DNA of 51,642 bases, taken from Clostridia bacterium DTU030. Its GTDB lineage: Bacteria > Bacillota > DTU030. The stretch lies in assembly GCA_001513125.1 (NCBI GenBank), contig LFSN01000021.1, forward strand, positions 1-51,642, read 5' to 3'. The stretch's first letter is position 1. The number at the start of each line of letters is the position of its first letter. The position numbers and the translations under genes are program-made. The notes under the pieces were generated by a model. The model worked only from the letters and a program-made list of their open reading frames with translations. It ran no database searches and was not told the origin of the DNA. Below, one piece after another: positions 4,268-44,911 of this stretch.

Positions 4268-5572
4268 CTATCGCAGGAGTTTCTGGGCATGGCTCTCCAC
4301 CATATACATAATCTTTTCCCTATCCAGGGTACACAGCTCTCCCCCTTCGACGACAATCTTGCCATCTACTATTACCGTATCGACGTCACTGCTCCTGGCA
4401 CTGTAAATCAAGGCGGAAAGGGGATTAAAGCGAGGATACAGGTGGGGTTGCTCCCTGTCGACAATGATCAAATCAGCCTTCATGCCGGCCTGCAGGCGAC
4501 CACATGTCTCTGCTAAACCCAGGGCCGCGGCGCCGTTGGCAGTGGCCATTTTCAGCGCTTCCGCAGCGGGAATTACCGTTGGCTGGCCGGAATAACCCTT
4601 ATGGATGAGGGCGGCCAGGCGGGCTTCTTCCAAAATATCCAGGTTATTGTTGCTGGCAGCACCATCGGTACCCAGGGCGACCAAGACCCCTGCTCCCAGG
4701 AGCTGGGGAAGGGGGGCAATGCCGCTGGCCAATTTAAGGTTGCTGCCGGGATTGTGAACCACATGGATGTTGTTTTGGGCCAATAAGTCGATATCGGCTT
4801 CTTCCAGGTGGACGCAATGGGCGGCCAGGATGTGGAGGTTGTTTAGATCCTGCTGGCAGAGGTAGGCTATGGGCGATACCCCATATTGGTCTTTAATTTG
4901 TTTTATTTCTGTTTCTGTTTCTGCCAGGTGGATATGTATGCCGACCTCTAAATCCCGGGCGGCGGCCAGGGACTGGGCCAAATATTCCGGGGAACAGGTA
5001 TAGGGAGCATGGGGTCCCAGCATGGTGGTAATCCGTCCGTCGGCAGCCCCATTCCACTCCTGACAAAAACCGATGGCCTCCCTCAATCTGACAGCAGCGT
5101 CCGGGCTGACGCCGATTAAGCCCGGGGCTATGGCTGCCCTGATCCCGGCTTCGGCCACAGCCTGGGCGATGGCATCGGGAAAGAAGTACATGTCGGCAAA
5201 GGCGGTAATACCGGCTAATAACATCTCGCCAATGGCAAGGAGGGTGCCCCAATAAACGGCCTCGGCTGAGAGCTTACTTTCCAGGGGCCAGATCTTGTTT
5301 TCCAGCCATTCCTGGAGGACGAGATCATCGGCATAGCCGCGAAACAGTACCATGGCCGCATGGGTGTGGCCGTTTACCAGGCCCGGCAGGACCAGCTTAT
5401 TTTCCGCCTTGATTACCCGCCGGGCCTTCCAGTCTGCGGGCAATCCCTCCCCTGCCGGCCCTACGTAAAGGATTTCCTGGCCCTTGATGGCTACAAGGCC
5501 AGGGTCGTATACACTGCCTTCCTCATCTACTGGGATCACCGTTCCCCCTGTGATTAGGAGATCCAACATCAT
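4268..5572 (-). CDS. mtaD: 5-methylthioadenosine/S-adenosylhomocysteine deaminase (amidohydrolase)
   Basis: This amidohydrolase of about 434 residues deaminates adenosine-type nucleosides (MTA, SAH, 5'-deoxyadenosine) to the inosine form. The metal site is visible: GHTHAAM near residue 70, HIHLAET, HCVHL and LGTDGAASNN, the last carrying the catalytic Asp. GPHAPYTCSP is typical of the MtaD/TrzN-like branch. Adjacent ATGs at 5572 and 5569 follow GAGGAGG and GGGGAGAGGG; the GTG at 5584 overlaps the ribosome binding site and is less likely. Its place beside mtnA and mtnP says it acts in MTA or 5'-deoxyadenosine salvage. The individual substrate cannot be told from sequence. Confidence 0.88.
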   Translation of the reverse strand: MMLDLLITGGTVIPVDEEGSVYDPGLVAIKGQEILYVGPAGEGLPADWKARRVIKAENKLVLPGLVNGHTHAAMVLFRGYADDLVLQEWLENKIWPLESKLSAEAVYWGTLLAIGEMLLAGITAFADMYFFPDAIAQAVAEAGIRAAIAPGLIGVSPDAAVRLREAIGFCQEWNGAADGRITTMLGPHAPYTCSPEYLAQSLAAARDLEVGIHIHLAETETEIKQIKDQYGVSPIAYLCQQDLNNLHILAAHCVHLEEADIDLLAQNNIHVVHNPGSNLKLASGIAPLPQLLGAGVLVALGTDGAASNNNLDILEEARLAALIHKGYSGQPTVIPAAEALKMATANGAAALGLAETCGRLQAGMKADLIIVDREQPHLYPRFNPLSALIYSARSSDVDTVIVDGKIVVEGGELCTLDREKIMYMVESHAQKLLR

Positions 5573-17171: not shown

Positions 17172-17726
17172 TTAATTGGTATGTACCGCCCTTCCCTGTT
17201 TATCCTCCCCATACATACCCATACCCTGCACAATAAGTATAAAGACACCGGCCATCAGGAAAAGGTCGCCGACACTGTAGAGCCTGTAATAGGAAAGGAA
17301 GGGAAGCTTGAGGGGGATGATGTCGGCAAGGAAGATGAGCCTGGTATTGGCGGCCATGGGGGCATGCTTTCCCCGGACCAGGTCCAGTACCCCCCCTTCC
17401 AGGGGAAGGTCCAGGAGTTCCAGGGCTACCGGCATTTGGCCGCCGTTGAGGGAGATTACCAGGGCATTGAGGAGGGTGCCCAGGAAAAGAAAGGGCATTC
17501 CCGGAAGACGGATATTGAGCGCCAGGGAAAGGAGAAGGAGCAGATAGGATAAAACCATCAGCTGGGGAGCCCAGCCCTCCATGGGCTGGGCCCGGGCCGC
17601 CAGTTGCAAAAGGAGAGAAATATAAAATAAATATACTCTTTGCAAGGGCAAATGGACCAGGTTCCTGAGATTTCCCTTTCTTAATTTACCGACAATATAG
17701 GCCAGGAGGCCCGGTATTAACAGCAA
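17172..17726 (-). CDS. DUF5317 family membrane protein
   Basis: This protein of about 184 residues has several hydrophobic helices (LLIPGLLAYIVGKL, VYLFYISLLLQLAA, LMVLSYLLLLLSLALNI, MPFLFLGTLLNALVISLNGG) and a conserved C-terminal part (LADIIPLKLPFLSYYRLYSVGDLFLMAGVFILI) matching DUF5317. Function is unknown. I chose the TTG at 17726, preceded by GGAAGGAG, so its start overlaps the gamma-carbonic anhydrase stop by ten bases. The longer reading from 17789 runs antisense-like Arg/Gly-rich sequence through that gene. The overlap implies translational coupling with the upstream gene. Confidence 0.75.
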   Translation of the reverse strand: MLLIPGLLAYIVGKLRKGNLRNLVHLPLQRVYLFYISLLLQLAARAQPMEGWAPQLMVLSYLLLLLSLALNIRLPGMPFLFLGTLLNALVISLNGGQMPVALELLDLPLEGGVLDLVRGKHAPMAANTRLIFLADIIPLKLPFLSYYRLYSVGDLFLMAGVFILIVQGMGMYGEDKQGRAVHTN

Positions 17727-29689: not shown

Positions 29690-30181
29690 CTATATCTCCC
29701 GGTTAAGGTCAAGGTCATTCCTCTGCCTCTGGCATTGGGCCATGGTAGCCTGCACAAGCTCCAGCAGACCCCTATAGCTGAGCCTGATGCCCAGGGCGGC
29801 CAGGGGCCTGCCGCAGCTAACCAGGCCCAGCCTGCGGGACAGGAAGCCTCCTATGCGGGTCAAGGAGTGGATGCAGACCAGGGTATCTACCAGCAGTATT
29901 TCACGGGGGGGATAAGCCAATATTTTTATCAGGCTGGCAATGGTCCGCCGGATCATAACCTTATCCGGTCCCAGCCCCAGGGCATAAATTTCGTTCCCTT
30001 CCCCATCCCTTCCCATAAAAAAGGGAGTACCGATCTCCCGGTTTTCCGTCCGGTCAAAGCGCTCCTGTTTTACCAGCTCGGCCAGGGTTGGGAGTCTGTC
30101 CCAGGGTAGTTTTCTCAGGTGTATGGCGGCGGCAATCACCGAAGAGTGGGCACTGCCATAACAGCAGTAGATTATTTTCAA
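29690..30181 (-). CDS. DUF3189 family protein (copy 1)
   Basis: This 163-residue soluble protein starts KIIYCCYGSAHSSVIAAAIHLRKLP, the typical DUF3189 N-terminus, which looks like a Rossmann-type first strand with a following glycine loop. Later conserved parts are GTPFFMGRDGEGNEIYALGLG and LLVDTLVCIHSLTRIGGFLSR. Function is unknown. I chose the TTG at 30181 after AAAGGGGAAATAGCC; the longer frame upstream is out of family. It starts two bases after its paralogue's stop. Confidence 0.8.
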   Translation of the reverse strand: MKIIYCCYGSAHSSVIAAAIHLRKLPWDRLPTLAELVKQERFDRTENREIGTPFFMGRDGEGNEIYALGLGPDKVMIRRTIASLIKILAYPPREILLVDTLVCIHSLTRIGGFLSRRLGLVSCGRPLAALGIRLSYRGLLELVQATMAQCQRQRNDLDLNREI

Positions 30182-30183
30182 GG

Positions 30184-30657
30184 CTATTTCCCCTTTCCAA
30201 GGGGCTGCCCTCGGCCCCTCTGCTCTTCTACCAACCTGACCAGGGCAAAATAATTCCTTTCGATCTCCAGGAGGGGAAAAAACCTGGAACCAGCGATGCG
30301 TCCTAGGCTGCAGACAAACAGTGCTCCCCGCCGCCAATGCCGGCCTGCCGCAAGCTCCGCATCAACCAGGGAAAGCTCCCCTTTATCTACGCCCAAGATT
30401 GCGGAGAAACCAGCCACCACATTTTGCAGTATGGTTAAATTAAATCCCCGGGGGAGGAAGTAGATGCTATTGCCCCCTTCGTCTAAACCGGCTGGATAGA
30501 TCCTCCCCCTTTCTGCCCTATTCCAGGCAAAATGGTCGACAATTTCCAATAGGGACCGGGGTGGTGGTTTTTGGTCTGGCGGCAGCAGGCCCAGATGGAT
30601 TGCCGCTGCCACTACAGCCGCGTAGGAAGGGTGGGGACAGTGGTAGATGATATGCAT
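30184..30657 (-). CDS. DUF3189 family protein (copy 2)
   Basis: This 157-residue paralogue of the next gene begins MHIIYHCPHPSYAAVVAAAIHLGLLPPDQ. It shares the middle pattern (GRIYPAGLDEGGNSIYFLPRG) and the C-terminal LVDAELAAG...SLGRIAGSRFF. In place of YCCYGSAHSS it reads YHCPHPSYAA, so the small Cys/Ser cluster differs between the copies. The ATG at 30657 has GGAGG six bases upstream. Function is unknown. It follows the fni terminator by about 90 bp, so a promoter should lie in that gap. Confidence 0.78.
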   Translation of the reverse strand: MHIIYHCPHPSYAAVVAAAIHLGLLPPDQKPPPRSLLEIVDHFAWNRAERGRIYPAGLDEGGNSIYFLPRGFNLTILQNVVAGFSAILGVDKGELSLVDAELAAGRHWRRGALFVCSLGRIAGSRFFPLLEIERNYFALVRLVEEQRGRGQPLGKGK

Positions 30658-30747
30658 GGCCGGCCTCCATCCCAAGAAAATATTAAATTCCCTTGCTAGG
30701 GTACCCCTCCTTTCTTCTGGCTTATACAGGGCAGGAAAGGCTCCTGG

Positions 30748-30795
30748 CAAAAATAAAGCCTGCTTCCCAGCGGACTTCCCGCGGGGAAGGCAGGC
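30748..30795 (-). terminator. Terminator of fni
   Basis: A long stem, GCCTGCCTTCCC against GGGAAGCAGGC with one bulge, ends in TTTATTTTT on the minus strand, starting 17 bp after the fni stop. Confidence 0.75.
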
Positions 30796-42470: not shown

Positions 42471-43181
42471 TTACCGGACCAGGGCCTGCAATTTCTTAAC
42501 CTCGGTCCTGGTCAAATGGCGATAATCCCCCGGTTTAAGCCGCCCCAGGGTAAGGAAGGCGAATTTTGTCCGCCGCAATTTTAAAACAGGGTAGCCAAGC
42601 TTGGCCCACATGCGCCGCACCTGCCGGTTGCGGCCTTCGTGGATGGTCATTTCCAGCCAGCTTTTTCCCCTGCCCCCTTTCAGAAGGCTGACCCGGGCAG
42701 GGGCTGTCCAGCCATCTTCCAGCAAAAGGCCCTGCCGTATGCTTTCCAGGTCCTCTTCGGTAGGCTGACCTTTGACCAGGACCTGGTAGGTCTTATCTAT
42801 CTCGAAGCGGGGATGAGTCAGCTTATAGGTTAAATCACCATCATTGGTTAAGAGGAGCAGCCCTTCGGTATCATAATCCAGGCGTCCTACAGGATGTACT
42901 ACCGCTCCTATATTGCCAATAAGGTCCATAACCGTCTGCCGGCCCTGGGGATCCCGGCGGGTAGTCACTACCCCCCTGGGTTTGTATAAAATTAAATATA
43001 CCTTTTCCTCCGGGGCTACTACCTTCCCTTCGACCTTCACAATATCCTTATGGGGCTGCACCTTGGTACCCAGGACAGCCCGCCTTCCGTTAACGGTAAC
43101 TTTTCCCTGGCGGATCAATTCTTCTGCCTTGCGGCGGGAAGCAACCCCGGCGGCAGCGAGGAATTTCTGCAGGCGTACCAC
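42471..43181 (-). CDS. rluB: 23S rRNA pseudouridine synthase (RluB/RsuA family)
   Basis: This 236-residue protein has an N-terminal S4 RNA-binding domain (RLQKFLAAAGVASRRKAEELIRQG) and an RsuA/RluB catalytic domain with VHPVGRLDYDTEGLLLLTNDG (catalytic Asp in RLDYDT), YKPRGVVTT and EGRNRQVRRMWAKLGYPV. It modifies uridine in helix 89 of 23S rRNA in RluB-type members. It starts with GTG after GGGGAGGG. Near scpA/scpB and spmA/spmB this is a common Firmicutes gene cluster. Confidence 0.94.
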   Translation of the reverse strand: MVRLQKFLAAAGVASRRKAEELIRQGKVTVNGRRAVLGTKVQPHKDIVKVEGKVVAPEEKVYLILYKPRGVVTTRRDPQGRQTVMDLIGNIGAVVHPVGRLDYDTEGLLLLTNDGDLTYKLTHPRFEIDKTYQVLVKGQPTEEDLESIRQGLLLEDGWTAPARVSLLKGGRGKSWLEMTIHEGRNRQVRRMWAKLGYPVLKLRRTKFAFLTLGRLKPGDYRHLTRTEVKKLQALVR

Positions 43182-43246
43182 TTCTTTCCCTCCCCAACTA
43201 TAAGGTGCTTGGGAACAGGCCTATTTAGTTCCCTCCTGGTCCATGG

Positions 43247-43275
43247 CACACTTTTTCCCTATCTTGCATAAGATA
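43247..43275 (+). promoter_or_regulatory. Candidate SigK promoter of the plus-strand orphan gene
   Basis: CACA (43247-43250) and gCATAAGATA (43266-43275) are 16 bp apart and match the SigK consensus mACm-N16/17-gCATANNNTA at every fixed position. The site lies 37 bp upstream of the GTG of the only plus-strand gene, between divergent starts. Confidence 0.45.
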
Positions 43276-43311
43276 CTCCTGTAACGACGGACCATTAGGG
43301 AGGTGCCAGTA

Positions 43312-43776
43312 GTGAATTTTGGGGCAGAATTACTCACCCTCAGGTCCCTGTCCCTGCAGCCGCAGGATTCCTTTGAACTTTTTATTACCATCGATGGTAA
43401 ACCCATTCCAGAGACCTTTGGGAAGGATGATTATCTCTTATCCCTCTCCCTTGCTGAAGGCAGGAGGATATGTGCCACGGGTCGGAAATGTATGCACCGC
43501 CGCCCCAATAATGGGGAGAAGTTTTTTGAAACAGGACCTGCGGAACCGGCCTGTCTGCCAGAAATCATCAATTCCCGAAAGGTGCTCTTATTTGTTAAAA
43601 ACTCTGTTGTCGAGGAAGCAAGCCTTTTTCGGGAGTCCTTCATCTTGCGCATTCATATTGATGGAAATTTGAGCCGGGAGGTTCCCCTTACAGCCCAAAA
43701 CGTAATTACCGATTGGAGTAATCACGGGAAATTCCTGGTCGATTTGTCGGCAGTTTTCCAGGAGCTTGGGGCTTAA
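43312..43776 (+). CDS. Unknown protein, only plus-strand gene, possible late sporulation gene
   Basis: This 154-residue soluble protein is of no family I know. It starts with GTG at 43312 after GGGAGG (a GTG at 43303 overlaps the ribosome binding site). Two stretches resemble each other, SFELFITIDGKPIPETF and SFILRIHIDGNLSREVPL, suggesting a duplicated beta unit. A Cys/Arg-rich piece (RRICATGRKCMHRRP) lies between. No signal peptide or membrane helix is visible. Its stop overlaps the spmB stop head-on by three bases. The candidate SigK promoter and the spmAB context suggest a mother-cell spore protein (inference). Confidence 0.62.
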   Translation: MNFGAELLTLRSLSLQPQDSFELFITIDGKPIPETFGKDDYLLSLSLAEGRRICATGRKCMHRRPNNGEKFFETGPAEPACLPEIINSRKVLLFVKNSVVEEASLFRESFILRIHIDGNLSREVPLTAQNVITDWSNHGKFLVDLSAVFQELGA

Positions 43777-44312
43777 GGACCAAAGGCGAGCTGACAAATA
43801 TAGAGGGAGGCCAGAAAACCAGCTAAATCCCCCATGAGCCCAGCAAACAAAGCATGGCGGGGTTTTTTTATCCCTACTGCACCAAAATAAACTGCCAAGA
43901 TGTAAAAGGTCGTATCGGTACTTCCCTGCATGGTAGAAGCCAGGCGACCAATAAAGGAGTCTGGACCATGGGTATTAATCAGATCCACTGTTAAACCGAA
44001 GGCTGCACTCCCCGACAGGGGCCGGGTCAAAACCAGGGGAAGAATATCCGGGGGTACGCCGCCCAGGGACAAGAGGGGATTGAGGAGTTTAGTTACCAGG
44101 TCTAGGGCCCCCGATAAACGCAAAAGGTCAATGGCGACAAACATCGCCACCAGCTGGGGGATGATCCGCACAGCGGTAGTGAAACCTTCCTGGGCTCCCT
44201 GAATGAAGGATTCAAAGACATTGACACCCCGCCAGTGGGCCACCAGCAGGATACCGGCGATGAGGAGGGGAACTGTTCCCTCAGATAGGATTTCCAGGGT
44301 CTTCAGTAACAC
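43773..44312 (-). CDS. spmB: Spore maturation protein B
   Basis: This membrane protein of about 179 residues has a nucleoside-recognition (Gate) domain. Its conserved parts are VNVFESFIQGAQEGFTTAVRIIPQLVAMFVAI, LTRPLSGSAAF, and STMQGSTDTTFYILAVYFGAVGI. SpmA and SpmB act in spore core dehydration in Bacillus and Clostridium. I chose the GTG at 44312, which overlaps the spmA stop (TAGTG) and has GGGGGG eight bases upstream. It is coupled to spmA and convergent with the plus-strand gene. Confidence 0.93.
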   Translation of the reverse strand: MLLKTLEILSEGTVPLLIAGILLVAHWRGVNVFESFIQGAQEGFTTAVRIIPQLVAMFVAIDLLRLSGALDLVTKLLNPLLSLGGVPPDILPLVLTRPLSGSAAFGLTVDLINTHGPDSFIGRLASTMQGSTDTTFYILAVYFGAVGIKKPRHALFAGLMGDLAGFLASLYICQLAFGP

Positions 44313-44911
44313 TAGCGCCACCCCCCCGGTTTCTTCCGTCCCCAGTGGCGACAGAAGGCATCGACGGTCAAGGCGGCCATGGTGGAGCAGCAGGTGGCAA
44401 TAATGGTAGTACCGACAATTTCCGCCGGGTTTTTGGAACCGGCGGCGGCCCTGGCGGCGATAACCAGGGTTGGTATTAAAGTAATGCCGGAAGTGTTAAT
44501 GGCCAAAAGGGTGCACATACTGTTGGTCGCAGTGTCCGGCTCTTCATTTAGCTCCTGTAATTGTGCCATGGCCTTTAAGCCCAGGGGTGTGGCAGCATTT
44601 CCCAGGCCCAGCAAATTGGCACTCATGTTGAGCAGGATGGAACCCAGGGCCGGGTGATTGGCAGGCACCTCGGGAAAGAGCCACCTGACAAAGGGACGGA
44701 TAATGCGGGCGAGAAGAAGGATTAAGCCGGCATCTTCTGCAATGCGCATCAGTCCCATCCAGAAGGCAATGGTACCGATAAGGCCGAGGGCAGTTTCCAC
44801 GGCTGTTTGACTGCCCTCAGTTACCGCCCTGGTCACCACCTCAGCCCGGCCCCCCAAGATCGCTGCTGCAATACCAATCAGGATAAAGGAAAGCCAGATC
44901 CTGTTGAGCAT
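44312..44911 (-). CDS. spmA: Spore maturation protein A
   Basis: This 199-residue membrane protein of the Gate-domain family shows GLIGTIAFWMGLMRIAEDAGL, FPEVPANHPALGSILLNMSANLLGLGNAATPLGLKAM in pieces, and TNSMCTLLAINTSGITLIP. The pair SpmA-SpmB is needed for normal spore dehydration. Start ATG with GGAGG. The 114 bp upstream carry the MazG-gene hairpin; a sporulation promoter was not clear there. Confidence 0.94.
   Translation of the reverse strand: MLNRIWLSFILIGIAAAILGGRAEVVTRAVTEGSQTAVETALGLIGTIAFWMGLMRIAEDAGLILLLARIIRPFVRWLFPEVPANHPALGSILLNMSANLLGLGNAATPLGLKAMAQLQELNEEPDTATNSMCTLLAINTSGITLIPTLVIAARAAAGSKNPAEIVGTTIIATCCSTMAALTVDAFCRHWGRKKPGGWR

Follow-up and report, generated by a model that had tools for sequence, protein, structure and literature searches.

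The 51,642-nucleotide contig of Clostridia bacterium DTU030 analysed here, referred to as the window, raises the question of what is encoded by a single plus-strand gene, X, that lies tail to tail with spmB, and at which stage of sporulation it might be expressed. The sequence-only reading had proposed that X is the sole credible plus-strand gene in the window, and this view holds, as the other coding-like plus-strand ORFs oppose minus-strand genes; of the minus-strand genes that were tested, the majority have Pfam matches. The best-scoring of these other ORFs (17181-17552, plus strand) has no Pfam match, and the minus-strand ORF overlying it is DUF5317. Elsewhere on the minus strand (29690-30750), DUF3189 is matched by two neighbouring, overlapping ORFs. 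The features of the X locus are as follows.

43246-43275, plus strand: SigK-type promoter of X, -35 GCAC at 43246-43249 and -10 CATAAGATA at 43267-43275, retained at the aligned position in 9/9 class relatives
43298-43303, plus strand: ribosome binding site of X, GGGAGG
43312-43776, plus strand: X, encoding a 154-residue soluble protein
42471-43181, minus strand: RluB-type pseudouridine synthase, divergent from X (PF00849, 4e-23, plus an S4 domain)
43773-44321, minus strand: spmB, its stop overlapping that of X (Gate, PF07670, 1.8e-15; synteny with spmA and ytfJ)
44312-44911, minus strand: spmA (Gate, PF07670, 1.6e-13)

Comparative analysis indicates that X is a protein-coding gene. Its preferred start is the GTG at 43312-43314, downstream of GGGAGG, from which the relatives align; an alternative GTG at 43303 overlaps the ribosome binding site and is less good. 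Homology and codon bias had been suggested as checks on the gene. With a profile search, X homologues were recovered from 9 of the 13 genomes of the class and, across the phylum, from 40 of 399 sampled, the frame being unbroken and the length similar in nearly all of them. Codon bias was weak at 0.177 bits per codon, above the minimum (0.157) but below the mean (0.300) of the minus-strand genes in the window, and is therefore insufficient as proof by itself, so that the homologues decide. Between X and its nearest homologue (85% identity), differences are concentrated at third codon positions (19/10/54 for the three positions) and dN/dS is 0.11, similar to that of the sporulation neighbours of X, which shows from the aligned sequences that purifying selection acts on the X protein itself. 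Together with the homologues, this selection rules out a spurious ORF.

The search covered this phylum and plasmid records, the latter giving no X match. All 40 X-bearing genomes carry spoIVA, compared with 336/399 overall (p = 0.001, ignoring relatedness), and this marker discriminates poorly among close relatives, nearly all of which carry it. Among the genomes sampled, the family thus appears to be found only in spore-formers. Three relatives in which spmB and rluB are adjacent cleanly lack X while keeping spoIVA, indicating that X can be lost and lies outside the essential sporulation set. None of 39 members had a credible match in Pfam or NCBIfam, known coat families included, and no PDB chain was matched by the family profile; by these searches X represents an unnamed family missing from the family libraries. 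A literature search via the neighbouring gene names found no paper on X.

In the family alignment, E6, D39, R52, G57 and R58 are near-invariant, and ATGRK forms the most conserved block. The Cys/Arg-rich "linker" described earlier for X is actually this conserved core, whose Cys is not retained outside the class, and the duplicated motif described with it did not withstand comparison of the two halves (p = 0.064 by shuffling; hhalign probability 1.3%). By hydropathy the window protein is soluble, with no membrane segment and no evident signal segment. A structure model of X, built with the window and L023 sequences as its only input, was too poor to use (mean pLDDT 50), and Foldseek against the PDB gave a best E of 0.96. 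The coat protein CotE, which is similar in length to X and has an A-x-x-GRK motif in common with it, was considered as a relative and rejected, as none of the 39 members gave a CotE HMM match even with E allowed up to 1.

The full match to the SigK promoter pattern reported upstream of X was confirmed as exact, AC-N17-CATAAGATA (AC-N17-CATA), or GCAC-N16-GCATAAGATA across 43246-43275. Only two sites in the 51 kb match the strict pattern on either strand, namely the X promoter (in two registers) and one at 4890 on the minus strand. The upstream regions of the nine class members align, with CAC and an ATA core both invariant and equally spaced, and an invariant GGAGGTG follows. With a relaxed pattern, AC-N15..18-[CA]ATAnnnT[AG], the motif was recovered upstream of X in 9/9 class orthologues and 19/31 more distant homologues, so that the promoter conservation put forward as a check is indeed seen in relatives. 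The total of 28/40 X loci compares with a shuffled expectation of about 2 and with 4/196 upstream regions of other gene families at the same loci (Fisher p about 1e-22, ignoring relatedness), a tally that omits a divergent PRK05802-like gene which carries the motif too. A reading of GCATA/GAATA as a SigG -35 element, in place of a SigK -10, was set aside by eye, with no CATnnTA seen at a fitting downstream distance. The organism of the window itself encodes SigK (351.9 bits against a curated cut-off of 298.65) and has spoIVA.

The sequence-only reading had further suggested that X might be an undescribed late mother-cell protein of the coat or cortex. The findings are in line with this suggestion: X belongs to an unnamed family, its SigK-type promoter is retained in relatives, and the organism has both sigK and spoIVA. 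SigK-made soluble products without a signal generally remain inside the mother cell, working on the forespore or in its vicinity. X resembles SigK regulon genes of Bacillus and Clostridioides in its AC-type -35, its CATAnnnTA-type -10 and their standard spacing, and likewise in encoding a soluble protein without a signal peptide, but it matches no named SigK-regulon protein family in Pfam or NCBIfam. A late mother-cell product is the best reading of this promoter, and a location at the coat or cortex is a reasonable guess. Because X is soluble and a predicted SigK product, our preferred reading is an auxiliary protein of spore maturation in the coat/cortex zone; a late mother-cell protein of this kind, made under SigK, is on balance probably what X encodes. 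Transcription of X by SigK polymerase would come late in the mother cell, after that of spmAB, a target of SigE in C. difficile (PMC3789822). The soluble 154-residue product, having neither signal nor membrane segment, would remain in the mother cell and assemble on the outer surface of the forespore. Counted against this reading are the 12 of 40 X upstream regions in which the motif is missing within the stretch scanned, the absence of X from three relatives with spoIVA and spmB, and the fact that enzymes, not coat components, are the products of many genes under SigK control.

The main rival, which is compatible with the coat/cortex reading, comes from the genomic neighbourhood and casts X as a soluble protein that partners or regulates the SpmAB-type Gate membrane proteins late in spore core dehydration, with subfamily I serving SpmA/SpmB and subfamily II a protein here called F3. 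When neighbouring gene families were clustered around 39 loci with X oriented forward, two settings emerged. In the first, rluB lies on one side of X in most loci and spmB-spmA-ytfJ-scpB-scpA on the other; in the second, X lies beside F3, a NIF3-like protein and a small protein with no match in Pfam. F3, found in the spore-former loci L021, L022 and L054-L080 (for example L067:6579-7664, minus strand), is a Gate-type membrane protein of roughly 360 residues. Gate was matched in 10/15 members (best 1.4e-8), and the first and second halves align in order to SpmA and SpmB, weakly (p about 0.005), which suggests that F3 may be an SpmA/SpmB-like fusion. One genome carries a tandem pair of X paralogues facing the F3 gene (L061:6658-7772, plus strand).

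SpmAB or F3 occurs within about 6 kb of X in 34/40 genomes, always on the opposite strand, while the sampled genomes hold only 6-16 Gate matches each, and the X tree separates an spmA-spmB clade from an F3 clade, excepting loci with neither, its deepest split being weakly supported. The neighbourhood with spmA-spmB is common to the whole class and more distant families, and these genes, like X, point to mother-cell sporulation. However, as neighbours are inherited together, the association may reflect few independent events and is a lead rather than proof. The spm genes differ from X in strand, solubility and sequence, X and Gate genes never share an operon, X alone of these genes carries the SigK-type promoter (1/20 for F3 and 1/13 for SpmA), and six of the 40 genomes have no Gate gene within the stretch examined. 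A partnership with SpmAB appears possible but doubtful. That X should be a late SigK product and the first soluble partner to be known for SpmAB-type Gate proteins, its two subfamilies matching the two forms of membrane partner, seems a somewhat slimmer prospect from these comparisons.

Control of X by SigE, as an early mother-cell gene, would also fit a sporulation role. The SigE and SigK promoters of C. difficile have closely similar -10 elements and are told apart at -35 (ATA for SigE and AC for SigK), and spmAB is under SigE control there (PMC3789822). The conserved -35 of X is GCAC/AC rather than ATA and is thus of the SigK type, and a SigE-type pattern was found in only 2/40 X upstream regions, so that control by SigE is unlikely.

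Membership of X in a late redox module is more improbable again. Divergent from X in seven f2 genomes are a gene for a PRK05802-like FAD/NAD protein and, after it, one for a FAD oxidoreductase; the oxidoreductase is found close to X in 13 loci. At L014-L020, the SigK-type promoters of X and of the PRK05802-like gene stand back to back with their -35 elements (GGCAC) only a few bases apart, so close that two polymerases could hardly bind simultaneously. Both genes are nevertheless missing from most F3-setting loci, and in the genome of the window the FAD oxidoreductase lies on another contig (G000:C55:14211-15488) with no PRK05802-like gene adjacent to it.

The overlapping stop codons of X and spmB noted earlier were likewise observed, the X stop TAA (43774-43776) and the spmB stop, the reverse complement of 43773-43775, both lying within TTAA. 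No terminator-like site turned up around the X stop, and with the two stops overlapping, the X transcript could run antisense into spmB. Stops overlap in the window and three relatives, whereas the stop-to-stop gap ranges from -15 to +67 bp among relatives, and the antisense arrangement is thus not a conserved design. That the useful product is a late antisense transcript silencing spmB, with the X protein of little importance, is highly improbable despite the overlap and the missing terminator-like site, given the variable gap, the selection on the protein and the many F3-setting loci in which the Gate gene is divergent and an antisense overlap impossible.

Nearly all spore-formers retain SpmA and SpmB, for which a 2012 survey knew of no biochemical activity (PMC3533761), although dehydration of the spore core requires both (PMC8745062). 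With its conserved late mother-cell promoter and its recurrence beside SpmAB or an SpmAB-like fusion, X is a concrete new candidate for a role in core dehydration. As a late mother-cell protein, X would enlarge the late sporulation set of anaerobic Bacillota, whose genes of this kind may be missed by Bacillus-based catalogues. If X is moreover a partner of SpmAB, it would provide an entry point for studying how SpmAB dehydrates the core of the spore.
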